Assembly: GCF_003696205.1 (NCBI RefSeq)
Contig: NZ_RFFI01000018.1
Location: forward strand, 1 to 46,542
From: Cellulomonas triticagri
GTDB taxonomy: Bacteria; Actinomycetota; Actinomycetes; Actinomycetales; Cellulomonadaceae
Length of the DNA: 46,542 nucleotides
Reading direction: 5' to 3'
Shown here: in pieces, positions 19,576 to 40,700 of the stretch
How the letters are laid out: each line of letters opens with the position of its first letter
Numbering within the stretch: position 1 is the stretch's first letter
Translations under genes and position numbers: made by a program
The notes under the pieces: model-generated
Told to the model about the DNA's origin: nothing
Databases searched by the model: none
The model's input: the letters and a program-made list of their open reading frames with translations, nothing else

Positions 19576-21084
19576 CTACTCGTCGGAGCTGCCCGCTCGG
19601 GACCGCAGCAGCGGCAGCGCCGCGACGGCCCCGCCAGCCACGCCGACGACGACCAGGCAGGCCAGCGTCGTCCAGCGGCCGTCCACGACGTGCTGGACGG
19701 CCCACGAGACCGCCGCGGTGCCCAGCGCGAGCGCGAGCGCGCCCAGCACCGCGCCCCGGCCTGGTCCGCCCCCGGGGGTGACCAGGCCGCGCGAGCCGCG
19801 CAGCAGCACGACCAGCGCCGCGGACGAGGCCAGCACGCCGGCCGCGGCGAGGCCGAACATCCCGCCGGCGAGCGCGAGCAGCACGCCGGCGACGACCTTC
19901 ACGACCGTGTAGACGGCGTACGAGCGGGTCTCGATGCCCGGCCGGCCGGCCGCGCGGACCACGACGGCGCGGGCGTTGCCCGCGAGCGTGAGGACGAAGC
20001 CGGCAGCGAGCACCGCCGTCAGCGGCGCGATCCCGTCGACCTCCGGCCCGAGCCACTCCGCGGCGGCGAACGGCAGGACGCCGAGGGCCAGCGCCGCGAA
20101 CGGCAGCACCAGGCGCAGCCAGCCGCGTTCCGCCTCGGCCCCCGCGTCCGGAAGGCTGCCGGGATCGCGTCCGGCACGGACGCTCAGCGAGGTGAACACG
20201 GGTGTGAGCAGCACGGTGGGCGCGAGGCACGCCGCGGCCGTCAGCGGGGCGGCGGCGGAGACGCTGGCGAGTGCGGCCGTGCCGAGCAGGATGCCGGCGA
20301 GGACCACGTCGAGCTCCCGCTGGGCGACGAATCCCACCGCGGAGAGCTGGTTGCGCCAGGAGTACGCCCACAGCTCGCGCGTCTCGGCGCGGGACGTCGG
20401 TCGGCGCACCTCGCGCAGCAGGTGCCGCCGGCACAGCACCAGCCCGGCGAGCACCGCGACGCCCGCGTCGGCGAACGAGGCCAGCAGCAGCCCCGGCAGC
20501 CCGGAGCCCGTGGCGAGCGCGACCACGATCCCGACGGCGAGCACGCCTCGCGCGGCGAGGGACTGCACGGCCATGGCGACGAACCGCGACCGCGCCGCGA
20601 GGTACGAGCTGAGGGCCAGGGCGACGAGCTGCAGCACCGCGAGCGTCCCCGCGTGCCGGAACAGCAGGGCGGCGTCGTCCCGGACCGCCTCGGGGACGGT
20701 CACCACGGCCAGGACGCCGCGCGAGATCCACGGACCGGCGACGGTGACGACGACCAGCAGCGCCCCGAGGACCAGCAGCACGGACGCCGTGATCCGACCG
20801 CCGAGGGCGGTGTCCGCGCGACCGCGCGCGACGCCGTGGTACCGCTGCATGATGCCGACGACCCCGAGGTCCGCCGTGAGCAGCAGGTTGATCGTCGTCA
20901 TCATCAGCGCCCACGCGGCGTACGCGCCGGGGCCGAGCCGCTCGAGGACGAACGGGGTGGCGAGCAGCTGGACGCCGAGGGGCGCCATCCGCGCCACCGC
21001 GACGAGCAGGCCGTCGGTGCGCCGGGCAGCAGGTTCGGGGCCCGTGGCCGGGGCGGGTCCGGCGGGGACCTGGTCGGCGGTCAC
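19576..21084 (-). CDS. oligosaccharide flippase (Wzx-like, MATE/MVF superfamily)
   Basis: 502 residues with about 12-14 hydrophobic segments along its whole length. It begins at the GTG overlapping the previous stop (GTGA). Near the start are VARMAPLGVQLLATPFVLER and YAAWALMMTTINLL, as in polysaccharide biosynthesis flippases. The C-terminal end is short and polar (LLRSRAGSSDE). It would flip undecaprenyl-linked oligosaccharides, probably those built by the three GT2 genes upstream in the same operon. The much longer open frame upstream is not used. Confidence 0.82.
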   Translation of the reverse strand: MTADQVPAGPAPATGPEPAARRTDGLLVAVARMAPLGVQLLATPFVLERLGPGAYAAWALMMTTINLLLTADLGVVGIMQRYHGVARGRADTALGGRITASVLLVLGALLVVVTVAGPWISRGVLAVVTVPEAVRDDAALLFRHAGTLAVLQLVALALSSYLAARSRFVAMAVQSLAARGVLAVGIVVALATGSGLPGLLLASFADAGVAVLAGLVLCRRHLLREVRRPTSRAETRELWAYSWRNQLSAVGFVAQRELDVVLAGILLGTAALASVSAAAPLTAAACLAPTVLLTPVFTSLSVRAGRDPGSLPDAGAEAERGWLRLVLPFAALALGVLPFAAAEWLGPEVDGIAPLTAVLAAGFVLTLAGNARAVVVRAAGRPGIETRSYAVYTVVKVVAGVLLALAGGMFGLAAAGVLASSAALVVLLRGSRGLVTPGGGPGRGAVLGALALALGTAAVSWAVQHVVDGRWTTLACLVVVGVAGGAVAALPLLRSRAGSSDE

Positions 21085-22981: not shown

Positions 22982-23904
22982 GCGTCCTCCTGCAGCGGGC
23001 CGGTGCGTCCGCGCAGCCCGTCGACGAGCCCGCGCAGCAGCAGACGGGCGCGACGGGCCCGGGGGGCGACGGCGAGCACGTAGAACCCGGCGTACTTGGT
23101 GATCCACGCCAGGTACCCGACCTGCCAGGCACGCGGCAGCAGCCCGGACCGGACCAGCAGGACGGTGTTGCGGGCCATGTAGTAGTTCCGCACCGGCGAG
23201 TGGATGTGCACGTCCCGCTCGCGGCCGGGGATGCGCTGCACGCGGTCGCCGAGCGAGTGCGCGAGCCGCGCGCCGACGACGCCGAACGAGCCGTAGCCCG
23301 CCCGGCGGGCGCGCAGCCCCCACTCGAGGTCGATGTGGTCGATGAACCAGGCCTCGTTCATGCCGCCGACCTCGCCCAGCACCGCGACGTCCACGAGGCA
23401 GCCCGAGGCGATGAGGAAGGTGGCGGGCACGAGGGCGCCGTCCACCTGCGGCACGGTGGCCCGACGCGGTCCCCAGCGGTGGTCCGAGAACAGCAGCGGC
23501 GCGCCCGCGTTGCGCTCGTCGACGGTCACCGGGCCGACGGCGGCCACGCGCCCGTGCTCGGCGCGGGCCCGCGCGAGCCCGTCCCGCAGCCGCGCGACCA
23601 TGTCCGGCTCCGGCACGGAGTCCTGGTCCGAGAGGAGCACCGTCGTCGCGCCGTGGGCGCGCGCCCGCTCGATGCCGAGGTTCTGCGCCCGTGCGATGCC
23701 GAGGTTCCGCCCCAGCTCCACGAGCTCGCCGCGCAGGTCCGCGACCACGTCCCGCAGGGCGTCCACCGCGCGGGCGTCGCTGCCGTTGTCGACGAGCACG
23801 ACGTGGTCCACCTGGGGCGCGAGGGCCCGCAGCAGCACCGTCGTCGCGGCGACGTCCGGCCGGTAGGTGACGACGACGGCGACGACGCCCGTCGGTTCAG
23901 CCAC
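22978..23904 (-). CDS. GT2 glycosyltransferase, rhamnosyltransferase-like
   Basis: 308 residues. VVAVVVTYRPDVAAT, LVDNGSDARAV, GRNLGIARAQNLGI, VLLSDQDSVPEPDM and WFIDHIDLEWGLRARRAGY are the ordered motifs of the RfbF-type rhamnosyltransferase group. A C-terminal YLAWITKYAGFYVLAV is hydrophobic. The GTG start overlaps the end of rfbC by 8 bases, so it is coupled to dTDP-rhamnose synthesis. Probable dTDP-rhamnose donor. Confidence 0.87.
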   Translation of the reverse strand: MAEPTGVVAVVVTYRPDVAATTVLLRALAPQVDHVVLVDNGSDARAVDALRDVVADLRGELVELGRNLGIARAQNLGIERARAHGATTVLLSDQDSVPEPDMVARLRDGLARARAEHGRVAAVGPVTVDERNAGAPLLFSDHRWGPRRATVPQVDGALVPATFLIASGCLVDVAVLGEVGGMNEAWFIDHIDLEWGLRARRAGYGSFGVVGARLAHSLGDRVQRIPGRERDVHIHSPVRNYYMARNTVLLVRSGLLPRAWQVGYLAWITKYAGFYVLAVAPRARRARLLLRGLVDGLRGRTGPLQEDA

Positions 23905-24514
23905 GCAGCGTCGCCAGGTACGCCTCGACGTCCGCGTGCTGCGGCAGGAGGCCGTCGGCCAGCGCCTGCTCGAGCGTGGGTGCGGCCGTGTCCTTCTCGG
24001 ACAGCTGCGGCGTGATCGGCCGGCCGTCGCGGCCCGTGGTGGGCCAGTCGATGCCCACGGTCGGGTCCAGCGGGTGGATGCCGTGCTCGCGCCCGGGCGC
24101 GTAGCCCGCGGAGCACAGGTAGAGCACGGTCGAGTCGTCCTCGAGCGACATGAAGGCGTGGCCCAGGCCCTCGGCCAGGTAGATCGCCCGGCGGTCGACG
24201 TCGTCCAGCAGCACGGAGTCCCACTGCCCGAACGTCGGCGAGCCGACCCGGATGTCCACGACCACGTCGAGCACGGCGCCGCGCGCGCAGGTCACGTACT
24301 TGGCCTGGCCCGGGGGGACGTCCGCGAAGTGGATGCCGCGCAGCACGCCCGCGGCGGAGACCGACAGGTTGGCCTGCTGCAGGTCGAACGCGTGACCGGC
24401 GGCGTCGCCGAACGGCGCCGACTTGAACCACTCGAGGAACACCCCGCGCGGGTCGCCGAACTGCTTCGGGGTGATCTCCCACGCCCCGGGGACGGCGAGC
24501 TCGCGGTACTCCAC
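23897..24514 (-). CDS. rfbC: dTDP-4-dehydrorhamnose 3,5-epimerase
   Basis: Third step of dTDP-L-rhamnose synthesis. The 205-residue cupin has FGDPRGVFLEWF, LRGIHF with the catalytic His62, KYVTCARG and Tyr132 in LYLCSAGY, in the spacing of RmlC enzymes. The GTG start lies 6 bases after GGAGAA. It is the first gene of the 18395-24514 operon and diverges from rfbD, so the last two enzymes of the pathway share one control region. Confidence 0.95.
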   Translation of the reverse strand: MEYRELAVPGAWEITPKQFGDPRGVFLEWFKSAPFGDAAGHAFDLQQANLSVSAAGVLRGIHFADVPPGQAKYVTCARGAVLDVVVDIRVGSPTFGQWDSVLLDDVDRRAIYLAEGLGHAFMSLEDDSTVLYLCSAGYAPGREHGIHPLDPTVGIDWPTTGRDGRPITPQLSEKDTAAPTLEQALADGLLPQHADVEAYLATLRG

Positions 24515-24622: not shown

Positions 24623-25468
24623 GTGCGCTGGTTGGTGACGGGTGCCCGCGGGATGCTGGGGCAGGACCTGGTGGCACGGGTGCGGCAGGACGGCCACGAC
24701 GTCGTCGCGCTGGACCGCGACGAGCTCGACATCACCGACGCGGCGGCGGTGCTCGACGCGGTCGCCGGTGCGGACGTGGTGGTGAACTGCGCGGCCTGGA
24801 CCGCGGTCGACGACGCGGAGACCCGCGAGGGTGACGCCTTCACCGTCAACGCCGTCGGCCCGCAGTCGCTGGCGCGGGCGACCGCCCGGCACGGCGCGCG
24901 TCTCGTCCAGGTCTCGACGGACTACGTCTTCGACGGCCACGCGACCCGGCCCTACGCGGAGGACGGGTTCGCCGCCCCGCGCTCGGCCTACGGCCGCACC
25001 AAGCTCGCGGGCGAGTGGGCGGTGCGGGCCGAGGCCCCCGACCACCTGATCCTGCGCACCGCCTGGCTGTACGGCGCGCACGGCGGCTGCTTCCCCAAGA
25101 CCATCGCGCGCGTCGCCGCGGAGAAGGGCGGCCTGGACGTGGTGGACGACCAGGTCGGGCAGCCCACCTGGACCGTCGACGTCGCCGACCTCGCGGTGCG
25201 CCTGGTCGACGCCGCGGCGCCGTCGGGGACCTACCACGCGACGTCGTCGGGGCTGACCTCCTGGTTCGGCTTCGCGCGGGACGTCGTGGCGGCGGCCGGG
25301 ATGGACCCGGAGATCGTGCGCCCGACCACGAGCGAGGGCTTCGTGCGTCCGGCTCCCCGCCCGGCGTACTCGGTGCTCGGGCACGACGCGCTGCGCGCGG
25401 CGGGCGTCGAGCCGATCGGTGACTGGCAGCAGCGGTGGGCGACCGCCGCGAAGGAGGTGCTCGTCTGA
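24623..25468 (+). CDS. rfbD: dTDP-4-dehydrorhamnose reductase
   Basis: Final step to dTDP-L-rhamnose, using NAD(P)H. The 281-residue SDR protein shows VTGARGMLGQDL, INTTAW-like NCAAWTAVDDAE, VSTDYVFDG and YGRTK (Tyr123, Lys127). RmlD landmarks TAWLYG and GQPTWTVDVADLA are also present. The GTG start follows GGAGATGCT. Its stop overlaps the pseI start by one base (TGATG), so rhamnose and pseudaminic acid supply are translationally linked here. Confidence 0.95.
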   Translation: MRWLVTGARGMLGQDLVARVRQDGHDVVALDRDELDITDAAAVLDAVAGADVVVNCAAWTAVDDAETREGDAFTVNAVGPQSLARATARHGARLVQVSTDYVFDGHATRPYAEDGFAAPRSAYGRTKLAGEWAVRAEAPDHLILRTAWLYGAHGGCFPKTIARVAAEKGGLDVVDDQVGQPTWTVDVADLAVRLVDAAAPSGTYHATSSGLTSWFGFARDVVAAAGMDPEIVRPTTSEGFVRPAPRPAYSVLGHDALRAAGVEPIGDWQQRWATAAKEVLV

Positions 25469-26523
25469 TGGCGGACCGTTCGATCCGGGTCGGCGCCCAC
25501 ACCGTCGACGCCCACCACCGGCCGTTCGTCGTGGCCGAGATGTCCGGCAACCACAACGGCGACCTCGGCCGTGCGCTCGCGATCGTCGACGCGGTGGCGG
25601 AGTCCGGCGCCCAGGCGCTCAAGCTCCAGACGTACCGCGCCGACACGATCACCATCGACGCGGACGGCCCCGCGTTCCGGGTCTCGGCCGGGCACGAGCT
25701 GTGGGGCGGGAAGAACCTCTACCAGCTCTACGAGGAGGCGCACACCCCCTGGGAGTGGCACGAGCCGATCTTCGCCCGGGCGCGCGAGCACGGTCTCGTG
25801 CCGTTCTCGAGCCCGTTCGACGGCACGGCGGTCGACCTGCTCGAGAGCCTGGACGTCGAGCTCTACAAGATCGCGTCGCTCGAGATCGCGGACCTCGCCC
25901 TGCTGCGCCGCGTCGCGCGGACCGGCAAGCCGATGGTGATCTCCACCGGCGCCGCCTCGATCACCGACGTCGACACGGCCGTCCGGACCATCCGGGCCGA
26001 GGGCAACGACCAGGTCGTCGTGCTCGCGTGCACGTCGTCGTACCCCGCGTCGCCGAGCGAGTCGAACCTGCGGTCGATCCCGGTGATCCGCGACGCGTTC
26101 GACGTCGTGGTCGGCCTCTCGGACCACACGAAGGGGATCGGGGCCTCCGTCGCCGCGGTCGCCCTGGGCGCGTGCCTCATCGAGAAGCACGTCACGCTCG
26201 CCCGCGCCGACGGCGGCGTGGACTCGGACTTCTCCCTGGAGCCGCAGGAGCTCGCGGCGCTCGCGACCGAGACCGAGGTCGCCTGGCAGGCGCTCGGGGA
26301 GGTCCGGCTCGACCCGACCGCGGGGGAGGCGGAGAGCCGACGTCTGCGCCGGTCGCTGTACGTGGTCGCGGACGTGCGCGCGGGCGACGTCGTCACCGAG
26401 GACAACGTCCGGTCCATCCGCCCGGCGGGTGGGCTCGAGCCGGTGCACCTCGACGTGGTGCTCGGCCGGACGTTCCGGTCCGACGCCGCCCGCGGCACCG
26501 CCCTGACCTGGGACCTGCTCTGA
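25468..26523 (+). CDS. pseI: pseudaminic acid synthase (NeuB family)
   Basis: Condenses phosphoenolpyruvate with 2,4-diacetamido-2,4,6-trideoxy-L-altrose to form pseudaminic acid. The 351-residue protein has the NeuB barrel, starting FVVAEMSGNHNGDL and ALKLQTYRADTIT. It also has VPFSSPFD, YKIASLE, ISTGAASI, CTSSYPA, GLSDHT and IEKHVTL, then GGVDSDFSLEP, which is closer to PseI than to sialic acid synthases. An antifreeze-like SAF domain (about 285-345) ends it. The start ATG overlaps the rfbD stop and follows AAGGAGG; an upstream frame to 25435 is unlikely. Legionaminic acid synthase is the main alternative, but the adjacent pseB type argues for Pse. Confidence 0.9.
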   Translation: MADRSIRVGAHTVDAHHRPFVVAEMSGNHNGDLGRALAIVDAVAESGAQALKLQTYRADTITIDADGPAFRVSAGHELWGGKNLYQLYEEAHTPWEWHEPIFARAREHGLVPFSSPFDGTAVDLLESLDVELYKIASLEIADLALLRRVARTGKPMVISTGAASITDVDTAVRTIRAEGNDQVVVLACTSSYPASPSESNLRSIPVIRDAFDVVVGLSDHTKGIGASVAAVALGACLIEKHVTLARADGGVDSDFSLEPQELAALATETEVAWQALGEVRLDPTAGEAESRRLRRSLYVVADVRAGDVVTEDNVRSIRPAGGLEPVHLDVVLGRTFRSDAARGTALTWDLL

Positions 26524-26541
26524 CGGCGGTGCGTGCCCCCT

Positions 26542-26578
26542 CGACGCCGTCGCACCCCGTGGGGGTGCGGCGGCGTCG
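26542..26578. terminator. bidirectional terminator between pseI and pseG
   Basis: A 17-base-pair stem with one U-G wobble pairs 26542-26558 with 26562-26578 around a 3-base loop. It lies between the converging stops of pseI (26523) and the pseG fusion (26584). Confidence 0.85.
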
Positions 26579-26583
26579 TCGCG

Positions 26584-28029
26584 TCAGGCTCCGTCCCTGA
26601 CGAAGGTGTCGAGCCCGTCCCCGGCGATCCCCGCGGGCCGGTAACCTGCCGCCTCGAACAGGCGGACCGACGCCGCGTTGCCCGGCCGCACGCAGGCCAG
26701 GACCGCCGGTCCGGGCCCGACGCGCTCCCGCCACGCCTGCTCGCCCGCGGCGAGCACGTCGGCGGCGAGGCCGCGCCCTCGGGCCGTCGGGGCCAGGGTG
26801 ATCGAGACCTCCCAGAGGTCGTCCCGCTCACGGTCGAACCGCACCGTGCCCACCGGCGACCCGGTGCGCTCGACCACCAGCAGCACCCGGTCCGGGTCGG
26901 TGAGCACCCCGTCGAGCCACCGCAGGTGCGCGTCCTCCGGGACCACGTCCTGGGTGCGGGACGAGGTCCGTGTCGCCGGGTCGTTGCGCCAGGCCAGCAG
27001 CAGCGGGCCGTCGGTCGCACGGGCGGGGCGTGCCGCGACGACCGGCCGCCCGCCGGCGGCCCACCAGGCGTCCAGCACGCGGTCCGCGCCGAGCCCGTCC
27101 ACCAGCGCCCGGCCCGTCGTGCGCAGGTCCGCCCGACGTCGCGGGTCCGTGAGCAGGCCGGCCAGCGCCGCCACCGCCGCGGGGTCGGCGGCGCGCACGG
27201 CGTCGAGCGGACCGAGACCGACCGCGATCCCCGCCGCGACCGCGCGCTCGTAGCCGGTGCGCTGGTTCTCCGTGACCGCGACCAGCGCGGTCGGGGCGCC
27301 CACGCACGCCAGCTCCCACACGGAGGTGCCGGCGGCGCTCAGCACCACCCCGGCCGTCGCGGCGAGCGCCGGCAGGTCGTCCTGAGGGCCGAGCACCTCG
27401 GCGGTCGGCACGAGGGCACGGACACGCTCGGCCGCCTCGCCGGCCGCGACCACCCGGATCCGCGGCGCCCCGGCCCGGTCCGCGAGGCGGGCGGCCGCGG
27501 CCCCGACCCCGAACGCGTCGGTGCCGCCCATCACGACGAGCACGTCCGACGGGGAGTCGTCCGCCCCGGCCGGGTCGCGGGCCAGCCGGCGCGCCGCGCG
27601 GACGGCCGCGCGCAGGGGGGCGTACGCCACGCCGCGCAGCACCGTCCCGGAGCCGTCGTCCGGCCGGTCCTCCGTCTCGGCGCCCAGGGTGGAGTCGACG
27701 ACGACGTCCGCCGCCCGGCGGCCGAACGTCCCGTCCTCCATGGACGAGACGAGCGGGCCGTGGCCGCGCAGGTCGCCGTCGACGCCGTAGTGGTCGACGT
27801 GCAGCACGTCGGCGTCCAGCCTCGCGACGGCCGCGGCGTCGAGGGGCCCGGCCGGCAGCACGGGCAGCCCGGCGGCGTGCACGAGCCGGCGGCCCAGCGG
27901 TGCGTCCACGGATCCGAGCAGCGCCACGGGCCAGCCACGGTCGCGGGCCGCCTCCGCCAGCGCCAGCGACCGCACGAGGTGCCCCACCCCCGACCCGGCG
28001 CTGGCGTCGCAGCGCAGCAGGACGCGCAT
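26584..28029 (-). CDS. pseG: PseG-PseH fusion: UDP-sugar hydrolase plus N-acetyltransferase
   Basis: 481 residues. Residues 1 to about 320 match PseG, which removes UDP from UDP-2,4-diacetamido-2,4,6-trideoxy-altrose. MRVLLRCDAS, then SGVGHLVRSLALA place the catalytic His at 17, as in Campylobacter PseG; VDHYGVD, VVMGGTDAFGV and LSAAGTSVWELACVG follow. From about 326 to the end is a GNAT acetyltransferase (LLLAWRNDP, VGTVRF, ITLAPTARGRGLAADVLA, NAASVRLFEAAGY), the expected fold for PseH, which N-acetylates the 4-amino sugar one step earlier. No stop, frameshift or start codon with a ribosome site separates the halves. It is coupled to pseF by a 1-base overlap. No other pseH is seen in the window. 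Confidence 0.9.
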   Translation of the reverse strand: MRVLLRCDASAGSGVGHLVRSLALAEAARDRGWPVALLGSVDAPLGRRLVHAAGLPVLPAGPLDAAAVARLDADVLHVDHYGVDGDLRGHGPLVSSMEDGTFGRRAADVVVDSTLGAETEDRPDDGSGTVLRGVAYAPLRAAVRAARRLARDPAGADDSPSDVLVVMGGTDAFGVGAAAARLADRAGAPRIRVVAAGEAAERVRALVPTAEVLGPQDDLPALAATAGVVLSAAGTSVWELACVGAPTALVAVTENQRTGYERAVAAGIAVGLGPLDAVRAADPAAVAALAGLLTDPRRRADLRTTGRALVDGLGADRVLDAWWAAGGRPVVAARPARATDGPLLLAWRNDPATRTSSRTQDVVPEDAHLRWLDGVLTDPDRVLLVVERTGSPVGTVRFDRERDDLWEVSITLAPTARGRGLAADVLAAGEQAWRERVGPGPAVLACVRPGNAASVRLFEAAGYRPAGIAGDGLDTFVRDGA

Positions 28030-28784
28030 CACGCCTCCTCGAGCGCCTTCTGGCGCACGTCGGCGTTGAGCGCCACCAGGTCGGGGCGGGCCCGCAGCAG
28101 GGCGACGAGCTCGCGCCACCGGACCGGGGCGTCCCCGAGCGCGGTCGCGACGGCGTCGAGCAGGGCCGCGTCCTGCGCGGTGTCGAGCGTGACACGCAGG
28201 TCGTGCGCGTCCGGGGCGACGACGAGCCCGAGGGTGCGGTACTCGCCCGGCACGGCGTACAGCGCGGACGTCACGTGCACCCGGTGGTGGTCGCGGGCCA
28301 CCCGGTCGGCGGCGGCGAGTGCGGCGGCGGAGACGAGCTCGACGTCCAGGCCGCGGGGCAGGGTGCGCACCAGGGTGGTCGCCACGTAGTCCAGCGTGGG
28401 GTCCGCCCGCCACGCGCCCACGACCGCGGCGACCAGGGCCGGGTCGAGCAGCGGGCAGTCCGCGGTCAGGCGGACGACCGCGTCGGCCCCGGTGGCCTCG
28501 CGGGCCGCGACGAACCGCGACAGCACGTCCAGCTCCGAGCCGCGGACCACGCGCACGCCGAGCTCCGCCGCGAGGTCGGCGACCGCGTCGTCGCCCGGTG
28601 CGGTGGAGGTCGCGACGACGACCTCGTCGACGCCCGCGGCGGCCTGCGCCGCGCGGACGACCCAGCCGAGGACGGGCCGTCCGGCCAGCGGCAGCAGCAC
28701 CTTCCCGGGCAGCCGGGACGACCCGGTCCGGGCCTGGACCACGGCGACGACTCGGGCGGGCGAGGGCGGGGGAGCGGTGCGCAC
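28029..28784 (-). CDS. pseF: pseudaminic acid cytidylyltransferase (SpsF family)
   Basis: Would activate pseudaminic acid with CTP to CMP-pseudaminic acid, the donor for transferases. The 251-residue protein has the nucleotidyltransferase start VVAVVQARTGSSRLPGKVLL, then VVATSTAPGDD, GSELDVLSRF and RLTADCPLLDP, followed by YVATTLVRTLPRGLDVELVS, the SpsF-type pattern. The GTG at 28784 fits the domain start; a longer frame reaches 28847. It lies first in a two-gene unit with the pseG fusion and diverges from pseB. Exact sugar specificity is inferred from context. Confidence 0.85.
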   Translation of the reverse strand: MRTAPPPSPARVVAVVQARTGSSRLPGKVLLPLAGRPVLGWVVRAAQAAAGVDEVVVATSTAPGDDAVADLAAELGVRVVRGSELDVLSRFVAAREATGADAVVRLTADCPLLDPALVAAVVGAWRADPTLDYVATTLVRTLPRGLDVELVSAAALAAADRVARDHHRVHVTSALYAVPGEYRTLGLVVAPDAHDLRVTLDTAQDAALLDAVATALGDAPVRWRELVALLRARPDLVALNADVRQKALEEA

Positions 28785-28870
28785 CGTGCCATGATGCTCT
28801 ATCGGGCGCACCGCGCCGCGCGGCCACGGCGCCGCGCACACCCGCACCGACCGTCTGGGAGTTCCACGGC

Positions 28871-29854
28871 ATGTCTCTGCTCACCGGGTCCTCGATCCTC
28901 ATCACCGGAGGCACGGGGTCCTTCGGCAAGGCGTTCATCCGGGAGGTCCTGGACCGGCACGACCCGCGTCGTCTCGTGGTGTTCAGCCGCGACGAGCTCA
29001 AGCAGTACGAGGTCCGTCGGCACTTCGACGACGACCCCCGCCTGCGCTGGTTCATCGGCGACATCCGGGACCGCCAGCGCCTCGCCCGCGCGATGCACGG
29101 CGTGGACTACGTCGTGCACGCCGCCGCGCTCAAGCAGGTGGACACCGCCGAGTACAACCCGTTCGAGTACGTCCAGACGAACGTCAACGGGTCGCAGAAC
29201 ATCATCGACGCGTCGATCGACGCGGGCGTGAAGAAGGTCGTCGCGCTGTCGACCGACAAGGCGTCCAGCCCGATCAACCTCTACGGCGCGACCAAGCTGT
29301 GCGCCGACCGGATGTTCGTGTCCGGCAACCACTACGCCGCCGCGTACGACACCCGGTTCTCCGTGGTCCGCTACGGCAACGTGATGGGCTCGCGCGGATC
29401 GGTCATCCCCGTGTTCCGCCGGCTCGCCGAGGAGGGCGCGTCCCTGCCGATCACCGACCTGCGGATGACCCGGTTCTGGATCACGCTGCCGCAGGCGGTG
29501 CAGTTCGTGCTCGACTCGTTCGAGATGATGACGGGCGGCGAGCTGTACGTGCCGCGCATCCCCAGCATGAGGGTCACCGACCTCGCGCAGGCGGTCGCCC
29601 CGGGCTCGGCGATGCACGAGATCGGCATCCGTCCCGGCGAGAAGCTCCACGAGGAGATGATCGCCCCCGACGACTCCCGCCGGACCGTGCGCCTGGGCGA
29701 CCGCTACGTGGTCATGCCCTACGTCAGCGGGTGGGGCTACGAGACGCCCGCGGGTGGTGAGCCCGTCGAGGACGGCTGGACCTACCGGTCGGACACCAAC
29801 GACCTGTGGCTGGACGAGGCCGAGCTGCGCGACATGGTCGCGCGGTTCGCCTGA
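28871..29854 (+). CDS. pseB: UDP-GlcNAc 4,6-dehydratase (C5-inverting)
   Basis: First pseudaminic acid step: UDP-GlcNAc to UDP-2-acetamido-2,6-dideoxy-L-arabino-hexos-4-ulose. The 327-residue SDR has ILITGGTGSFGKAF, FSRDELKQYE and HAAALKQVDTAEYNP. Catalytic Asp129-Lys130 lie in LSTDKASSPINLYG, with Tyr138 and Lys142. The single-domain, soluble PseB/FlaA1 type distinguishes it from membrane-bound retaining dehydratases (PglF, LegB). Upstream is GGGAG about 11 bases before the ATG. It forms an operon with pseC. Confidence 0.95.
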   Translation: MSLLTGSSILITGGTGSFGKAFIREVLDRHDPRRLVVFSRDELKQYEVRRHFDDDPRLRWFIGDIRDRQRLARAMHGVDYVVHAAALKQVDTAEYNPFEYVQTNVNGSQNIIDASIDAGVKKVVALSTDKASSPINLYGATKLCADRMFVSGNHYAAAYDTRFSVVRYGNVMGSRGSVIPVFRRLAEEGASLPITDLRMTRFWITLPQAVQFVLDSFEMMTGGELYVPRIPSMRVTDLAQAVAPGSAMHEIGIRPGEKLHEEMIAPDDSRRTVRLGDRYVVMPYVSGWGYETPAGGEPVEDGWTYRSDTNDLWLDEAELRDMVARFA

Positions 29855-29864
29855 GGCCGCCGCC

Positions 29865-30995
29865 GTGCTGCCCTACGGGCGCCAGTCCGTGGACGACGCC
29901 GACGTCGAGGCCGTCGTCGCCGCGCTCCGCAGCGACTGGCTGACCACCGGCCCCGCCGTCGACGAGTTCGAGCGCGCGATCTCCACGCACGTGGGCGGCG
30001 CCGCCGCCGTGAGCGTCACCTCCGGGACAGCGGCCCTGCACGTCGCGTACGCGGCGGCCGGGATCGGCGCCGGTGACGAGGTCGTGACGACCCCGCTGAC
30101 GTTCGTGGCGACCGCGGCCGCCGCCGCGCTCCACGGCGCCACCGTCGTGTTCGCGGACGTCGAGGCCGACACCGGCAACCTGGACGTCGAGGCGGCGCGC
30201 GCCGCGATGACGGACCGGACCCGCGTCGTCGCCGCCGTGGACTACGCGGGGCTGCCCGCCAGCCCCGACGCGTTCGCGTCGCTCGCCCACGAGCACGGCG
30301 CGCTGTTCCTCGAGGACGCCGCGCACTCGATCGGGTCGCTCTGGGACGGACGGCCCGTCGGGTCGTTCGCGGACCTGACGACGCTGTCGTTCTTCCCGAC
30401 GAAGAACCTCACGACCGCGGAGGGCGGTGCCGTCGTCACGGCCGACGCCGCGCTCGAGCGACGCGCGCGCGGGTTCAAGAACCACGGGCTGGTGCGCGAG
30501 CGCGACCGGCAGCGGTTCCCCGACGAGGGACCGTGGCACCAGGAGGTGCACGAGTTCGGGCTGAACTACCGCCTGCCCGACGTGCTCGCCGCCCTCGGCA
30601 CCTCCCAGCTGCGCCGCCTCGCGGCGTTCCGCACGCGCCGCGCCGAGATCCACGCCCGGTACGACGAGGGCCTGCGGGACCTCGAGGGCGTGCTCACCCC
30701 GGCGCGCCGCGCGCAGGCCGAGCCGGCCTGGCACCTGTACCCGCTGCGGGTGCTCGACGGCCGCCGGCGCGACGTGTTCGAGCAGCTGCGCGCGGACGGC
30801 ATCGGCGTCCAGGTCAACTACATCCCCGCCTACTGGCACCCGGTGTTCGCCGACCTCGGCTACCGGCGGGGGATGTGCCCGAACGCCGAGGCGTACTACG
30901 AGCAGGAGATCTCCCTGCCGCTGTTCCCGGACCTCACGGACGCGCAGGTCGACCAGGTCGTCGACGCCGTGCGCCGCGCGGTGACGGGCCGCTGA
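29865..30995 (+). CDS. pseC: UDP-4-amino-4,6-dideoxy-GlcNAc aminotransferase
   Basis: PLP enzyme that aminates the PseB product, with glutamate as usual donor. The 376-residue DegT/DnrJ/EryC1-type protein starts LPYGRQSVDDADVEAVVAAL. It has SVTSGTAALHVAY, FLEDAAHSIGS and the PLP lysine Lys180 in FFPTKNLTTAEGGAVV, then GLNYRLPDVLAALG. It starts 10 bases after pseB. The GTG at 29865 fits the domain; the frame opens at 29754 inside pseB. Confidence 0.93.
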   Translation: MLPYGRQSVDDADVEAVVAALRSDWLTTGPAVDEFERAISTHVGGAAAVSVTSGTAALHVAYAAAGIGAGDEVVTTPLTFVATAAAAALHGATVVFADVEADTGNLDVEAARAAMTDRTRVVAAVDYAGLPASPDAFASLAHEHGALFLEDAAHSIGSLWDGRPVGSFADLTTLSFFPTKNLTTAEGGAVVTADAALERRARGFKNHGLVRERDRQRFPDEGPWHQEVHEFGLNYRLPDVLAALGTSQLRRLAAFRTRRAEIHARYDEGLRDLEGVLTPARRAQAEPAWHLYPLRVLDGRRRDVFEQLRADGIGVQVNYIPAYWHPVFADLGYRRGMCPNAEAYYEQEISLPLFPDLTDAQVDQVVDAVRRAVTGR

Positions 30996-31000
30996 CGGGC

Positions 31001-32059
31001 GTGGACGCTCCCGCACCGGACGATCCGCCCCGGGTTGGACGGCCGACGGTGTCGGTCGTCGTCCCGGTGCACGGCGTCGAGCGCTACCTGCGGGACTGCT
31101 TGGACTCGTTGCTCGCGCAGACGCTGCCCGGGATCGAGGTCGTGGCCGTGAACGACGCGTCCCCCGACGGGTCGCTCGACATCCTGCGGGCCTACGAGCG
31201 GGAGCACCCGGGCAGGGTCGTCGTCGTCGACTCACCGACCAACCGGCGGCAGGGCGGCGCGCGCAACCTGGGGATCGCTGCGGCCTCGGGGGAGTTCCTC
31301 GGGTTCGTCGACGCCGACGACTGGGTCGATCCGACGATGTACGAGAAGCTGGTCGCCCGAGCACGCGACACCGGGGCGGACGTGGTCGACTGCGACCTGC
31401 TGCAGGCCCGTGGCGAGCCGCACCGCCTCACCCGGGAGGTCAGCTGCTCCCCGGAGCAGACGGGGCCACGGTCCGCGGAACGGGACCGGGCGCTGATCCG
31501 GCGCGGGAGCCGGATCGTCACCAAGATCGTCCGGCGCAGCCTGTTCACGGAGCACGACGTGCGGTTCCCGGAGCAGGTGGCGTACGAGGACAACGCGCTC
31601 GCGACCGTGTGGTGCCTCGCCGACCGGGTCGAGAAGGTCGACGACGCGCTGTACTACTACCGGATCAACGCGGGGTCGACCGTGCGCTCGCGCGACAGCG
31701 CGATCGTGGCGGACCGGCTGGAGACCGCCGAGCAGATGGTGCGGAACGCGCAGGCGTGGGGCGTGTACGACGACTACCCCGACGAGGTGGAGGGTCGGTT
31801 CGTCGAGCTGTACTACCTCAACACGATCGGACCGTGCCTGTTCCGGTTCGACCGGCCGCAGCGATCCCGGCTGATCCAGCTGCGCGCGACCGCACGGACG
31901 CGGTTCCCGGACTACCGCCGGCGCCCGGCGTTCCGCCACGTCGCTCGAGCGCCCAGGGTCGTATCGGGCCTCAACGACCTGAGCCCCACCCTGCTGTGCG
32001 CGATCGCCTGGGCGGTCCGCGCGGTCGCGCGGGTGACCCCGCGGGCCCTGCGTCCGTAG
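31001..32059 (+). CDS. GT2 glycosyltransferase (CpsI/EpsH-like)
   Basis: 352 residues. VSVVVPVHGVERYLRDCLDS, VNDASPDGSLDIL, GGARNLGIAAASG and LGFVDADDWVDPTMYEKL (DADD metal site) define a GT2 domain of the capsular type. It is followed by a KIVRRSLF and FPEQVAYEDNALA segment found in that group. The basic C-terminus carries a hydrophobic segment (LLCAIAWAVRAVARV). It starts 5 bases after pseC, so it belongs to the pse unit and may act on the sugar carrying or receiving pseudaminic acid. Retaining or inverting CMP-sugar transferases are usually not GT2, so it is less likely to use CMP-Pse itself. Confidence 0.85.
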   Translation: MDAPAPDDPPRVGRPTVSVVVPVHGVERYLRDCLDSLLAQTLPGIEVVAVNDASPDGSLDILRAYEREHPGRVVVVDSPTNRRQGGARNLGIAAASGEFLGFVDADDWVDPTMYEKLVARARDTGADVVDCDLLQARGEPHRLTREVSCSPEQTGPRSAERDRALIRRGSRIVTKIVRRSLFTEHDVRFPEQVAYEDNALATVWCLADRVEKVDDALYYYRINAGSTVRSRDSAIVADRLETAEQMVRNAQAWGVYDDYPDEVEGRFVELYYLNTIGPCLFRFDRPQRSRLIQLRATARTRFPDYRRRPAFRHVARAPRVVSGLNDLSPTLLCAIAWAVRAVARVTPRALRP

Positions 32060-32084: not shown

Positions 32085-33482
32085 TCAGCCGGCCGGGGTC
32101 ACGGACCCGTCCGCTGGACCGGCCCGGCGGACACGGCGGAGCTGGGCCAGGGCAGTGACCGCGAGGACGGGCAGCGCGGCCAGGAGCACCCCGAGCCCGG
32201 CCTGCGGACCGGTCGACAGGGCGGTGCCGATCGAGACCAGGGCGACCACTGCGACCACCGCGCCGGGCCACCCTCGCAGCGGTACCGGCGCGAGCCGCGA
32301 CGCGACGACCCAGGTGACGGCGAACAGGGTCGTGTGCGCCACGACCTTGACCACGGCGAGCCCTTCGAGCCCGACGACGGCGGCGGCGAGGGCCCCGGCC
32401 CCGGCGAACCCGACGGCGGTCGTGACGGTGATCGTCGCGAGCGTCCCGGTGCGGCCCCGCTCGATGAGCACCAGGCTGCAGCCGAGGTAGAGGGCGTACG
32501 GCACACCCATCCAGACCACGACCCGGACCAGCGTCTCGATCGTGGTGTGGTCGAACCCCGGGCCGACGAAGAGCGGGACCAGCCACGGCGTCGTCACGGA
32601 GAGGCAGACGGCCCCGCCGGCCAGGACGACCGCGATGAGCACGGCGGACGCGCCCATCCACCGCCACCGGACCGCGGCCGGCTGCCGGTACACCGCCGGT
32701 CCCCAGGCGTTGAACAGCGCTGTGGCCACCGTGAACACGGTGTTCCCGAGCATGATGGCGGGCTGATAGGTCCCGGCTCCGTCGGCGCCCTGGAACGTGC
32801 CGGCGAGGATCGTGTCCGAGCTGAGCAGGACCACCATCGCGAGACCGTGCGGCAGCAGGGCGAGGGCCGGCGGCAGCCCACGCCGTGTCCGCTCCCGCTC
32901 ACGCCACGGCCACGCGGGACGCGACACCACGAGGGAAGCACCCCCGAGCAGCACCAGGACCGCGGTGTAGCCGCTCAGGTAGGCACCCGCCGTCGGCGCC
33001 ACCCACGTCGCACCGATGCCCACGAGCACCGCGCCGAGCGTCGACGACGTGGCGAGCACGATGAAGCCGAGCGGGCGCCGATCGGCGCGCAGGACGGCCT
33101 GGCACGCGGCGATGCACGTCAGAGCGCCCGACCCCAGGGCGACGGCGAGCGCGGGCACGGGGTCGGCGACGACACCCGCCGACCAGAGGACGACGACGGC
33201 GACGGTGCCCAGCACGCCGATCCCGATGCCTCCCACGACCATCAGGCCGACCGTGACCCGCGCGTCCACCCGGCCCTCCGCACCGCGCTCCCAGTCCCGG
33301 AGCACGAGCTGGGGGAACCCCGCGGCGAGGACGCTCACGAGCGTCTGCGCGACCGCGAGGGCGACGGCGACCCGCCCGTACTCACCGGTGCCGAGCGCGC
33401 GCGTCGCGAACGGGGTGGCGACCAGCAGAGCGAGACCCTGCAGCGCTGCGCCGAGCACGTAGAGCAGGCCGTGCCGGCTCAC
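32085..33482 (-). CDS. oligosaccharide flippase (Wzx-like), second copy
   Basis: 465 residues and about 12 or more membrane segments. It starts MSRHGLLYVLGAALQGLALL and continues TPFATRALGTGEYGRVAVAL, the classic start of Wzx/RfbX-type flippases. It is not close to the flippase at 19576, so it is probably a separate export route rather than a recent duplicate. I chose the GTG at 33482 because the first helix follows at once; GTG at 33515 is possible. The stop of the gene upstream, 33529, is very near. Confidence 0.82.
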   Translation of the reverse strand: MSRHGLLYVLGAALQGLALLVATPFATRALGTGEYGRVAVALAVAQTLVSVLAAGFPQLVLRDWERGAEGRVDARVTVGLMVVGGIGIGVLGTVAVVVLWSAGVVADPVPALAVALGSGALTCIAACQAVLRADRRPLGFIVLATSSTLGAVLVGIGATWVAPTAGAYLSGYTAVLVLLGGASLVVSRPAWPWRERERTRRGLPPALALLPHGLAMVVLLSSDTILAGTFQGADGAGTYQPAIMLGNTVFTVATALFNAWGPAVYRQPAAVRWRWMGASAVLIAVVLAGGAVCLSVTTPWLVPLFVGPGFDHTTIETLVRVVVWMGVPYALYLGCSLVLIERGRTGTLATITVTTAVGFAGAGALAAAVVGLEGLAVVKVVAHTTLFAVTWVVASRLAPVPLRGWPGAVVAVVALVSIGTALSTGPQAGLGVLLAALPVLAVTALAQLRRVRRAGPADGSVTPAG

Positions 33483-33528
33483 CCGGTCACCGGCCGGGTG
33501 CCCGAGCGCGGCCACCGGGGGGACGGCG

Positions 33529-34554
33529 TCATGCCGTCGCCGCCACGCGGATCGGCTCGGACCGGTCGCTCGGGGCGCGGCCGAGCGGGCGCGGCAGGTA
33601 CGCCGCGCTCGCCCGCAGCCACGCGACGGCACCGAGGGAAGCGCCCTCGCTGGCAGCCGTCGGCGTGGCCGACGAGGAACGCCGCCGCACCGCTGTGAGC
33701 GTGCGGCTGACCGGCGCGGTCAGCCAGTGGTCCAGCCAGGGCCCGACGTGCCGGCGGTCCCACCTCAGCAGGGCCCGGAGCTCCTCGGGCTCGCGCACGT
33801 AGGCGAGGCCGGTCTCGGCCTCGGCGGCAGCGCGCCGCTGCGCGGCCCCCGCCTGGTCGTCGTAGAACTCGGGCCACCGCTCACGGAGCCGGTCCACACC
33901 CGCGGAGTCCTCGCCGGCCAGGTGCATGGCGTCGCCCGTCACGGCGGTCGGGATGCCGAGCGAGGCCGCGTAGACGATCGGAGTCGAGAGGCGGTTGGAG
34001 ACGACACGACCCGCGCCGGTCAGCAGCGCGTGCAGGCGTCCGAGGAACGCCGGGTCGGTGCGGCGTCCCAGGGTGACGACCTCGTGGCCGGCCGACCGGT
34101 ACGCCTCGACGACCCTCGGGTCGTCGGCCTCGACGTGGTACAGGCAGACCGTCGCCGGTCCCTCCGTCGCGGCCCAGGCGCGCGCCACCGCGCGGTGGTC
34201 GCCCCGCAGCGCCTGGGTGGCGATGCCGTGCACCGGCAGGATCACCGTGCCGGAGCCCGTCGGCGCCGGCCCGAGCCGTGCGCACAGGTAGTGCCACGGT
34301 GCACCGATCGGGACGCTGCGGCGGTCGGCCGTCGCGGGGTCCCACGCACGCGACGAGTGCGACCACACGAACAGCGACCGCCGCGCGGGGCCGGTCGCCG
34401 TGCCGATCGCCGGGAAGTCCCGGAAGTGCGTGTCCAGGGGCGACACGGCGGTCCAGCCGTGCTGCACGAGGCCGGGCAGGTGCCGGGCGCGGTCGAGCCC
34501 CGCGTACGTGGCGAGGGCGCTGCTGTGACCGTAGTAGTGGTTCTGGGATTCCAC
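33529..34554 (-). CDS. unrecognised protein, possible GT-B glycosyltransferase
   Basis: 341 residues with no family I can name. It has no signal peptide or membrane segment. Residues 5-34 read like NHYYGHSSALATYAGL followed by LVQHGW. Then come LFVWSHSSRAW and IGAPWHYLCAR. The second half has a Rossmann-like pattern (VILPVHGIATQALRGDHRAV, CLYHVEADDPRVVEAYRSAG, VVTLGRR). It ends with RVVSNRLSTPIVYAASLGIP at about 183-202, followed by TAVTGDAMH, which resembles the donor site of sialyl- and glycerophosphate-type GT-B transferases. It is expressed with a flippase and is close to the pse genes, so a CMP-pseudaminic acid transferase is a reasonable guess. The GTG is set by a leaderless promoter. 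Confidence 0.6.
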   Translation of the reverse strand: MESQNHYYGHSSALATYAGLDRARHLPGLVQHGWTAVSPLDTHFRDFPAIGTATGPARRSLFVWSHSSRAWDPATADRRSVPIGAPWHYLCARLGPAPTGSGTVILPVHGIATQALRGDHRAVARAWAATEGPATVCLYHVEADDPRVVEAYRSAGHEVVTLGRRTDPAFLGRLHALLTGAGRVVSNRLSTPIVYAASLGIPTAVTGDAMHLAGEDSAGVDRLRERWPEFYDDQAGAAQRRAAAEAETGLAYVREPEELRALLRWDRRHVGPWLDHWLTAPVSRTLTAVRRRSSSATPTAASEGASLGAVAWLRASAAYLPRPLGRAPSDRSEPIRVAATA

Positions 34555-34641: not shown

Positions 34642-35334
34642 GTGAGGGTGGCCCTGCAGGCCCAGCAGCAGCACGACGACGTCTGCGTCGTCGTGCCCCT
34701 GTTCAACGAGCGGACGGTCGTCGGCGACGTCGTCCGCGACCTCCGCACGGCGTTCCCGCTCGTCGTCGTGGTCGACGACGGCAGCACCGACGACTCGGCC
34801 GCTGTGGCCCGGGACGCGGGGGCCCTGGTGGTGCAGCACCCGATCAACCTCGGGCAGGGCGCGGCTCTGCAGACAGGGATCGAGGCGGCGCTGCGGCTGG
34901 GTGCGCGGTACGTCGTCACGTTCGACTCCGACGGCCAGCACCAGCGGACGGACGCCGAAGCCATGGTCGAGCGCCTGCGGGCCGACGAGGCGGACGTCGT
35001 CTTCGGGTCGCGGTTCCTGGACTCGCGGACCCGGCCGGGCCTGGTCAAGCGCCTCGTCCTGCGTGCGGCGATCGTGTACTCGAACCTGACGACCGGCGTG
35101 CACCTCTCCGACACCCACAACGGTCTGCGCGCCCTGAACCGGCGGGCTGCCTCCGCCCTCAGCATCCGGCAGAACAGGATGGCCCACGCGTCCGAGATCA
35201 TCGAGCAGGTCGGGCACGCCCGGCTGCGGTGGGTCGAGCACCCGGTGCACATCCTCTACACCGACTACTCGCGGTCCAAGGGGCAGTCCGTGTTCAACGC
35301 CGTGAACATCCTGACCGAGATGATCTACAGGTAA
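34642..35334 (+). CDS. GT2 polyprenyl-phosphate glycosyltransferase (DPM1-like), second copy
   Basis: 230 residues. VCVVVPLFNERTVVGDVV, VVDDGSTDDSAAVA, HPINLGQGAALQTGI, TFDSDGQHQ and DTHNGLRALNRRAA give the DPM1-type order. No C-terminal membrane domain is present. It is followed 5 bases later by a DUF2304 gene, repeating the arrangement at 18395-19566. It would load a polyprenyl phosphate with one sugar for an extracytoplasmic transferase, perhaps one of the DUF2142 proteins downstream. The GTG is preceded by GGGGAG; GTG two codons later is possible. Confidence 0.87.
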   Translation: MRVALQAQQQHDDVCVVVPLFNERTVVGDVVRDLRTAFPLVVVVDDGSTDDSAAVARDAGALVVQHPINLGQGAALQTGIEAALRLGARYVVTFDSDGQHQRTDAEAMVERLRADEADVVFGSRFLDSRTRPGLVKRLVLRAAIVYSNLTTGVHLSDTHNGLRALNRRAASALSIRQNRMAHASEIIEQVGHARLRWVEHPVHILYTDYSRSKGQSVFNAVNILTEMIYR

Positions 35335-35339
35335 CCCGC

Positions 35340-35765
35340 GTGCTCATCAAGCTCCTCCTCCTCGTCGCCATCGCCGCCGTCTTCGTCCTCGGGCTGCGCG
35401 CGCCGAGCGGTGCGCGCCACCTCGCGCTGCGCCGGGTGTCCGTGCTGCTCGCCGCGGCCCTCGCCGCGCTCTCGGTGCTGTTCCCGGACGCGTGGAACGC
35501 GATCGCCGAGTTCGTCGGCGTCGGCCGCGGCACGGACCTGCTCCTGTACGGCCTGATCGTGGCGTTCCTGCTGTACATGGTGACGACCTACCGCCGGTTC
35601 CGGGACATGGAGCAGCAGATCACGCTGCTCGCCCGCCGCATCGCCGTCGACGAGACGCTGCCGCGCGCCGCGGCCGTACCGCCGCCGGGCCCGAAGCCCG
35701 CCGCCGGCGGCAGCCCGGCGCAGGACACCGCCGAGGGTGAGGCGAGCGGTGCGGACGGCCGCTGA
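35340..35765 (+). CDS. DUF2304 small membrane protein, second copy
   Basis: 141 residues. LIKLLLLVAIAAVFVLGL, RRVSVLLAAALAALSVLF and LLLYGLIVAFLLYMVTTYRR are three membrane segments. After them come the RFRDMEQQITLLARRIA helix and a Pro/Gly/Ala-rich end. The organisation matches the protein at 18395, though sequence identity looks low. It starts right after the GT2 stop and overlaps the next gene. Confidence 0.78.
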   Translation: MLIKLLLLVAIAAVFVLGLRAPSGARHLALRRVSVLLAAALAALSVLFPDAWNAIAEFVGVGRGTDLLLYGLIVAFLLYMVTTYRRFRDMEQQITLLARRIAVDETLPRAAAVPPPGPKPAAGGSPAQDTAEGEASGADGR

Positions 35766-39821: not shown

Positions 39822-40700
39822 TCAGCGCTGGTCGGACTCCAGCAGGCCGAGCAGGTAGGCGCCGTACCCGGACTTCACGAGCTGCTCGGCGCGGACGCGC
39901 AGCTCGTCGTCGGAGAGGAACCCGCGCCGCCACGCGACCTCCTCGGGCGAGCCGATCTTCATGCCCTGCCTGCTCTCGATGGTGCGCACGAAGTCCGAGG
40001 CCTCGAGCAGGGAGTCGAACGTCCCGGTGTCCAGCCACGCGGTGCCGCGGGGCAGCACCTCGACCTGCAGCCTGCCCTGCTCGAGGTAGTGCCGGTTGAC
40101 GTCGGTGATCTCGTACTCGCCGCGGGGCGAGGGCTTCAGGTCCTTCGCGATGGCGAGCACGTCGTTGTCGTAGAAGTAGAGCCCGGGGACCGCGTAGTTC
40201 GACTTCGGGGCGGCGGGCTTCTCCTCGAGGGAGAGCGCGCGGCCGGCCGCGTCGAACTCGACGACGCCGTAGGCCGTCGGGTCGGCGACCCGGTAGGCGA
40301 AGACCGCGGCGCCGTCGATCTGCTCGAACCGCTGCAGCTGGGAGCCGAGCCCGTGGCCGTAGAAGATGTTGTCGCCGAGCACGAGCGCGGCGGAGTCGGT
40401 GCCGACGAAGTCCGCGCCGAGCACGAAGGCCTGTGCGAGCCCGTTCGGTTCCGCCTGCACGGTGTACTCGATGGAGATGCCGAACTGCGAGCCGTCCCCG
40501 AGCAGGCGCCGGAACTGCTCGGCGTCGTGCGGGGTGGTGATGATCAGGACGTCCCTGATACCCGCCAGGATGAGCGTCGAGAGGGGGTAGTAGATCATCG
40601 GCTTGTCGTAGACCGGGACGAGCTGCTTGCTCACCCCGAGCGTGATCGGGTGGAGTCGTGTGCCGGAGCCGCCGGCCAGGATGATGCCTCGCATGGTCAT
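39822..40700 (-). CDS. rfbA: glucose-1-phosphate thymidylyltransferase
   Basis: First step of dTDP-L-rhamnose synthesis: glucose-1-phosphate plus dTTP to dTDP-glucose. The 292-residue protein has the nucleotide loop [20 protein letters not shown], then [59 protein letters not shown] and [18 protein letters not shown], all standard for RmlA. Start ATG at 40700; the ATG two codons in is equally possible. It is alone on its transcript, divergent to manA. Confidence 0.97.

Follow-up and report, generated by a model that had tools for sequence, protein, structure and literature searches.

Pseudaminic acid genes and a candidate nonulosonate transferase in a Cellulomonas surface-polysaccharide locus

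The locus and its pseudaminic acid genes

The window analysed here is a stretch of 46,542 nucleotides from Cellulomonas triticagri (contig NZ_RFFI01000018.1; contig C90 of genome G000, a 4.39-Mb draft in 280 contigs). It carries genes for the synthesis of pseudaminic acid (Pse), a nonulosonic acid best known from Gram-negative bacteria, together with an unclassified protein of 341 amino acids (aa) that we propose as a candidate transferase for this sugar. Between rmlD, which ends at 25468, and an rmlA-like gene at 39822-40700 lie pseI (+), a pseG-pseH fusion (-), pseF (-), pseB (+), pseC (+), a family 2 glycosyltransferase (GT2) gene (+), a Wzx-like flippase gene (-) and the open reading frame (ORF) for the 341-aa protein (-), after which come a DPM-like GT2, a DUF2304 protein and two DUF2142 membrane proteins. 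Beyond this interval the window holds a LytR-CpsA-Psr (LCP) ligase, Wzm/Wzt, a second flippase and several GT2 and GT4 genes. Start codons were assigned manually and with a script based on codon usage, NCBI equivalog cut-offs (TIGR models) were the standard for gene identity, and Pfam was used for domains. Comparisons drew on 150 genomes of the family, G000 included, and 394 genomes of the class, two samples that have G000 and at least G021 in common. PseI exceeds its cut-off in eight of the 150 family genomes, counting G000, and the seven relatives were compared with the window proteins over up to 20 kb either side of PseI, or, in G108, over a contig of only 6.7 kb.

A reading made from the sequence alone had claimed a complete pathway to Pse activated with cytidine monophosphate (CMP) at 25468-30995. 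All of the genes are recognisable there, and the three strand blocks over which that reading spread them are real, but the comparison with the Pse enzyme families that it proposed puts only three of the six activities (PseI, PseB and PseC) above curated cut-offs, with PseG, PseH and PseF below theirs. The product of pseI (25468-26523, +; its start overlaps the rmlD stop), a pseudaminic acid synthase with NeuB and SAF domains, scores 452.5 bits against a cut-off of 340 with TIGR03586, about 110 over, and 266 with the NeuB model, below its 400; its best PDB sequence match is 8h2c, 'Pseudaminic acid synthase' (E 4.9e-73). PseB (28871-29854, +), a 5-inverting 4,6-dehydratase of uridine diphosphate N-acetylglucosamine (UDP-GlcNAc), is some 90 bits over its cut-off (TIGR03589, 495 versus 408), and the residues D129, K130, Y138 and K142, to which the sequence-only reading had drawn attention, are identical in an alignment with the UDP-GlcNAc C6 dehydratase 2gn4 (E 3.1e-109). 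PseC (29865-30995, +; GTG start), a pyridoxal phosphate aminotransferase, is a bare pass by 0.1 bit (TIGR03588, 423.6 versus 423.5). The 481-aa fusion protein (26584-28029, -) has a UDP-sugar hydrolase domain at residues 1-258, for which the PseG model is the best match at 91 bits despite a cut-off of 153, and a clear GNAT N-acetyltransferase domain at about 334-464 (Pfam Acetyltransf_3, 51.6 bits at 334-464), which reaches 29 bits with the PseH model against a cut-off of 93. PseF (28029-28784, -; GTG start, overlapping the start of the fusion gene), assigned as a CMP-Pse synthetase of the CTP_transf_3 kind (PF02348, 89.9 bits), scores 35.6 with TIGR03584, under its cut-off of 206, and is matched better by models of the 3-deoxy-manno-octulosonate (KDO) cytidylyltransferase type (71). 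The pseF gene is syntenic in six relatives at 74-89% identity. All five Pse ORFs are found together in six relatives (48-97% identity), so their clustering is more than chance.

Other NeuB-family genes occur in these genomes as well. A different NeuB type, scoring under the PseI cut-off, is present in 49 of the 150 family genomes, mostly with only about 260-270 of 327 positions matched, which probably represents a separate, commoner nonulosonate pathway. The Pse locus of Humibacter albus (L070) contains two NeuB-family genes, at 37% and 65% to the window PseI.

A 341-aa protein that accompanies nonulosonate cassettes

The ORF at 33529-34554 (-; GTG start), which the sequence-only reading missed, encodes the 341-aa protein. 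Five of the seven relatives have it next to their Pse cassette, and G108 has it on another contig. Within the family it is confined to PseI-positive genomes, being present in seven of 150 (7/8 versus 0/142; Fisher p 3e-11), while a control GT2 of the same locus, found in 15/150 at E<=1e-20, is associated with PseI and not restricted to it (6/8 PseI-positive genomes versus 9/142 others, p 9e-6). Across the class sample the protein occurs in 14 of 394 genomes and PseI over its cut-off in 20, with an overlap of 12 (p 4e-16), and in all 14 carriers the contig with the gene also bears a NeuB-family synthase, at a distance of 1.6-14.6 kb. Carrier G377 is not over the PseI cut-off; its synthase falls in the Pse clade of the tree discussed below, near PseB and PseC homologues. 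Carrier G448, presumably Arsenicicoccus cauae, which it matches in coordinates, has a legionaminic acid (Leg)-type cassette. Two of the 14 class matches (G391 and G552) have one TGA within the aligned stretch.

A scan of named genomes found 28 loci, all in Actinobacteria and at 36-69% identity to the window protein, 22 of them with Pse enzymes within 10 kb and 15 with a homologue of the Wzx-like flippase within 1 kb of the 341-aa ORF. The loci come from 27 genomes, of which 21 have PseI over its cut-off and five have another NeuB type as best match; in the remaining one, a metagenome-assembled genome whose contig ends in pseC, none was found. At least seven named families of Actinobacteria have the protein in company with Pse or Leg cassettes. 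In Arthrobacter pascens (L079) it stands with genes whose NCBIfam matches are of the LegB, LegC and NeuB types, none reaching its cut-off and some on partial ORFs; a second Arthrobacter locus (L080) has the same pattern by similarity only, and at the Arsenicicoccus loci L062 and L063 the contig with the 341-aa gene also carries a cassette that is 55-80% identical to the L079 one. In a tree of the protein (29 rows) the four Leg-partnered members stand in two places, so that two changes of partner between Pse and Leg are needed, and the partnership therefore seems to be with a nonulosonate rather than with one particular sugar.

Predicted fold of the 341-aa protein

Sequence searches place the protein in no established family. 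Pfam gave no convincing family for 29 members (the best value, E 0.0066, was to DUF1937 in five of them), the PF04464 profile matched 0/29 at E<=1, and a PDB sequence search with the 341-aa protein returned nothing at E<=10. Residues invariant in the family include Q31-H32-G33-W34-T35, H109, D167, N187 and E229. An AlphaFold2 model built from 29 sequences has a predicted local distance difference test score (pLDDT) of 85.2 and a predicted template-modelling score (pTM) of 0.86. Searched with this predicted model, Foldseek returned 16 matches at E<=0.001, all 16 of them glycosyltransferases, with modest template-modelling (TM) scores of about 0.2-0.35; a viral fold library gave two matches at the same threshold, with query TM-scores of about 0.3. 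VIA-align, run on Foldseek's own candidates, ranked TagF (3l7j) highest, with Z 9.5 and 4.3 Å over 239 residues, and other high rows were a capsule multienzyme (8a0m, Z 8.9; 8a0c, with CMP, Z 8.5) and TarL (8va1, Z 8.1). No member of GT118 or GT107 is among the VIA-align rows listed, which excludes nothing.

The fold of the model is best read as GT-B-like. TagF and TarL are teichoic acid polymerases that take CDP-polyol donors (CDP being cytidine diphosphate), and both release CMP. Their high alignment rows only suggest that the 341-aa protein might belong to a CMP-releasing subgroup of GT-B enzymes, and it differs from them in that PF04464 is unmatched across its family and in that no significant similarity emerged when profiles were compared with that of the PF04464 protein in G018.

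Surface-polysaccharide context

The flippases, LCP ligase and glycosyltransferases that the sequence-only reading placed around the Pse genes are present, together with Wzm/Wzt and rhamnose genes. The LCP glycopolymer ligase lies at 149-1381 (-; PF03816, 142 bits) and the wzm-wzt exporter of the ABC type at 7531-9545 (+; PF01061, PF00005 and, for the Wzt C-terminal domain, PF14524). The Wzx-like flippase within the cassette is at 32085-33515 (-), its start set by codon scoring, with PF01943 at 37.1 bits on the longer frame 32088-33632. In six of the seven relatives, all but G108, the Pse genes are likewise near homologues of rmlA/C/D, Wzm/Wzt or LCP.

Two PseI-negative genomes, G066 and G115, share the scaffold of the locus (amidase, methyltransferase, Wzm/Wzt, GT4, GT2, rmlC, rmlD and rmlA), with other genes or a single GT2 in the rmlD-rmlA interval, and G081 and G131, also PseI-negative, share a smaller part of it. 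Because the contents of this interval differ in PseI-negative relatives, the Pse cassette looks like an exchangeable module of the surface-polysaccharide locus, with rmlD (24623-25468, +; TIGR01214, 289 bits, above cut-off) as its left border and the rmlA-like nucleotidyltransferase gene (39822-40700, -; PF00483, 259 bits; homologues of 79-96% in five relatives) as its right. The sites at which PseI-negative relatives have different genes (L123-L130, rmlD-rmlA interval) resemble a serotype locus. A Pse-bearing surface polymer, either wall polymer or capsule, which the sequence-only reading had thought likely, finds support in the window genes, in the context of the relatives, in the PseI-negative relatives and in G118, a genome with the cassette and without flagellin.

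Proposed function and alternatives

We propose, with a probability of about 0.7, that the cassette makes CMP-Pse, that the 341-aa GT-B-like protein transfers Pse to a surface glycan, which is then flipped or exported and possibly fixed by the LCP ligase, and that the whole is an exchangeable module. From the computed gene identities (three of six above cut-offs), synteny, co-occurrence and predicted fold we infer each catalytic step, the transferase role, the acceptor, the linkage and the attachment to the wall. In this scheme PseB would carry out the 4,6-dehydration of UDP-GlcNAc with inversion at C5, PseC the 4-amination, the PseH domain the N-acetylation and the PseG domain the release of UDP, after which PseI would condense the product with phosphoenolpyruvate and PseF would activate Pse with CMP. 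With CMP-Pse as donor, the 341-aa protein would then add Pse, still in the cytoplasm, to a surface glycan that is lipid-linked or growing, and the product would be flipped by Wzx (32085) or exported by Wzm/Wzt (7531); the LCP ligase may then fix it to peptidoglycan. As a whole, the cassette would be an exchangeable rmlD-rmlA module of a rhamnose-type surface-polysaccharide locus in Cellulomonas. We also consider it reasonably probable that the 341-aa protein (33529-34554) is the founding member of an actinobacterial glycosyltransferase family, a new one, of GT-B-like CMP-nonulosonate transferases, which would place Pse (Leg in some Arthrobacter and Arsenicicoccus) on surface polymers and whose donor would have switched at least twice.

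Both the sugar and the acceptor could be different from those proposed. The product might be another nonulosonic acid, whether Leg, N-acetylneuraminic acid (Neu5Ac) or 3-deoxy-D-glycero-D-galacto-nonulosonic acid (Kdn), as the weak scores of PseF, PseG and PseH against their Pse models would allow; we regard this as highly improbable and reject it on the curated model scores and on a tree of the NeuB family. PseI, PseB and PseC pass Pse cut-offs, PseB shares the 2gn4 residues, and against the Leg enzymes the window PseB scores 70 versus a LegB cut-off of 475 and the window PseC 194 versus a LegC cut-off of 420; in the Pfam scan no window protein scanned matched the UDP-GlcNAc 2-epimerase family. 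The tree holds 61 of 63 rows, with L103 (labelled Pse) and L122, whose extracted sequences are without similarity to PseI, left out. The sequence-only reading had suggested looking in a phylogeny for PseI grouping with Leg or NeuB types, and PseI falls instead in a Pse clade of 26 rows with support of 100/97, 25 of which exceed the curated PseI cut-off while one, G377 at 299 bits, does not; the NeuB genes of LegB/LegC cassettes form a separate branch, and the G240 row, whose 350 bits exceed the cut-off, is outside the clade. The models and the tree thus bear out the preference for Pse over Leg that had been drawn from the PseB active-site pattern. As to the acceptor, the sequence-only reading saw no flagellar genes, which holds for the window but not for the genome; the latter carries fliC, fliD, fliF and flgN, with fliC on a 17-kb contig (C276), and the assembly of 280 contigs does not give its distance from the Pse genes on C90. 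CMP-Pse from the cassette might then be transferred to FliC by a glycosyltransferase of this flagellar locus, where two GT2-type genes (L033:7593-9140 and 9285-10862) flank fliC, and flagellin is somewhat more frequent with PseI (6/8 PseI-positive versus 62/142 other family genomes; p 0.09). Maf flagellin transferases use CMP-activated nonulosonates (PMC13317340), and no PF01973 (Maf-type) protein was found in G000 (0 matches), an absence that is not decisive because non-Maf flagellin transferases exist, GT2-type ones being discussed for Clostridium (PMC13317340) and FlmG of Caulobacter being of another kind (PMC7591256). The fliC-side glycosyltransferase does not track Pse, however: at E<=1e-20 it is in 10 of 150 family genomes, eight PseI-negative and only two PseI-positive, and four PseI-positive genomes that do have flagellin (G008, G018, G109 and G113) gave no match to it. 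Six genomes have both PseI and flagellin, and in each of them the two lie on different contigs or are separated by 280 kb or more (over 280 kb in G008 and G018); G118, which is 100% complete, has the Pse cassette without a flagellin match, as does the Pse-positive G108, which is 77% complete. With no Maf, a remote flagellin and a fliC-side enzyme that does not follow Pse, we reject flagellin as the main acceptor and judge Pse transfer to FliC improbable.

A more serious alternative, though one we still think unlikely, is that the 341-aa protein is a passenger of the cassette, co-inherited with the Pse genes, that transfers a different sugar of the repeat unit or is no transferase at all. Its tight linkage to them makes hitchhiking possible, and there are also other glycosyltransferases in the variable part of the cassette; the neighbouring GT2 is itself PseI-associated, so part of the signal of the 341-aa protein reflects the shared locus. 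Against mere co-inheritance, the protein is retained while surrounding genes differ, and it also occurs with legionaminic-type cassettes at two separate positions of its tree, where the shared element is a CMP-nonulosonate. Several further observations weigh against the proposed transferase role or the pathway behind it. Besides the GT2 signal, relatedness of the genomes inflates all co-occurrence p-values; PseG, PseH and PseF are below equivalog cut-offs; TM-scores of the fold matches are low; and UDP-GlcNAc 2-epimerases reach Z 8.8 in VIA-align, within 1 Z of TagF. A second Pseudonocardia copy (L073), from the same genome as L071, whose copy adjoins Pse genes, is on an 11.9-kb contig that lacks Pse genes. 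In Rothia kristinae (L077) the gene adjoins a flippase, no nonulosonate gene turned up within 10 kb of it, and a NeuB-type gene is on another contig. Finally, the protein is absent from the PseI-positive family genome G018 and from eight of the 20 PseI-positive genomes of the class, so other transferases must exist.

G018 has several glycosyltransferase-like genes at its own Pse locus. An unnamed 374-aa ORF next to pseI (L037:1280-2404) matches strongly in just one of 394 genomes, G332, where the match is about 3.3 kb away from a gene of NeuB type; it is a possible candidate for a second nonulosonate transferase family. A DUF6716 'putative glycosyltransferase' and a PF04464 protein lie at L037:8206-9420 and 9417-10544. 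A sequence relation of the 341-aa protein to any of the three was rejected, with no significant profile match. In Rothia kristinae the 341-aa-type gene and its flippase gene (L077:10001-12579) sit amid apparent housekeeping genes. One of the two GT2-type genes flanking fliC (L033, G000:C276) has a methyltransferase domain, and these genes probably serve flagellin glycosylation, apparently not tied to Pse.

Relation to known systems

The Pse pathway and nonulosonate wall polymers of actinobacteria are already known; what appears to be new, as far as the literature search went, is the 341-aa family and its link to Pse and Leg. By homology the cassette has the same six activities as the CMP-Pse5Ac7Ac pathway of Helicobacter and Campylobacter (PseB-C-H-G-I-F), with the PseB residues of 2gn4, and differs in joining PseG and PseH in one ORF, in its divergent CTP_transf_3 PseF and in its setting in a Gram-positive polysaccharide locus. 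Pse-bearing wall polymers are known from Actinoplanes and Kribbella. The teichulosonic acids of actinobacteria resemble what we propose in having a nonulosonate in a wall polymer and an LCP-type ligase; nonulosonate wall polymers are described from Streptomyces (PMC11481543) and Kribbella (PMC6113628), the Streptomyces sugar being Kdn (PMC11481543), whereas the window cassette has Pse-type genes.

Pse-related transferases in the literature include KpsS1 (PMC12887879), Maf (PMC13317340) and FlmG (PMC7591256). KpsS1, a retaining Pse transferase of the Acinetobacter capsule in family GT118 (PMC12887879), is similar in its role to the one proposed here, since the 341-aa protein would likewise pass Pse from CMP-Pse to a capsule-type glycan; that no Pfam or PDB sequence relation was found for the 341-aa protein is only an indirect sign of a difference between the two, as the KpsS1 sequence itself was not compared. 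Our literature search, over titles and abstract openings with few subscription journals covered, found no description of the 341-aa family, its Pse/Leg link or Pse in Cellulomonas. In this locus an actinobacterial surface-polysaccharide scaffold bears both Pse genes and an unclassified protein whose family accompanies Pse and Leg cassettes. If this protein proves to be a transferase, it could offer a handle for the enzymatic synthesis of Pse and Leg glycosides, its distribution could predict which Actinobacteria have sialic-acid-like surfaces, and it might serve for testing whether phages or lectins read such surfaces.

Remaining features of the locus

The GT2 of the variable part of the cassette lies at 31001-32059 (+; PF00535, 120.5 bits), and the DPM-like GT2 with the DUF2304 membrane protein after it at 34648-35765 (+; PF00535, 80 bits; PF10066, 78 bits). 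Outside the cassette, rmlC is at 23897-24514 (-), with 201.7 bits for PF00908 and 151.9 for TIGR01221, slightly below the cut-off of 155.75, and the second Wzx-like flippase is at 19576-20988 (-; PF13440, 24.8 bits, cut-off 23). The polysaccharide locus also contains a large amidase-domain protein (925 aa, 3804-6581) and a SpoIID-domain protein (888 aa, 15617-18283).

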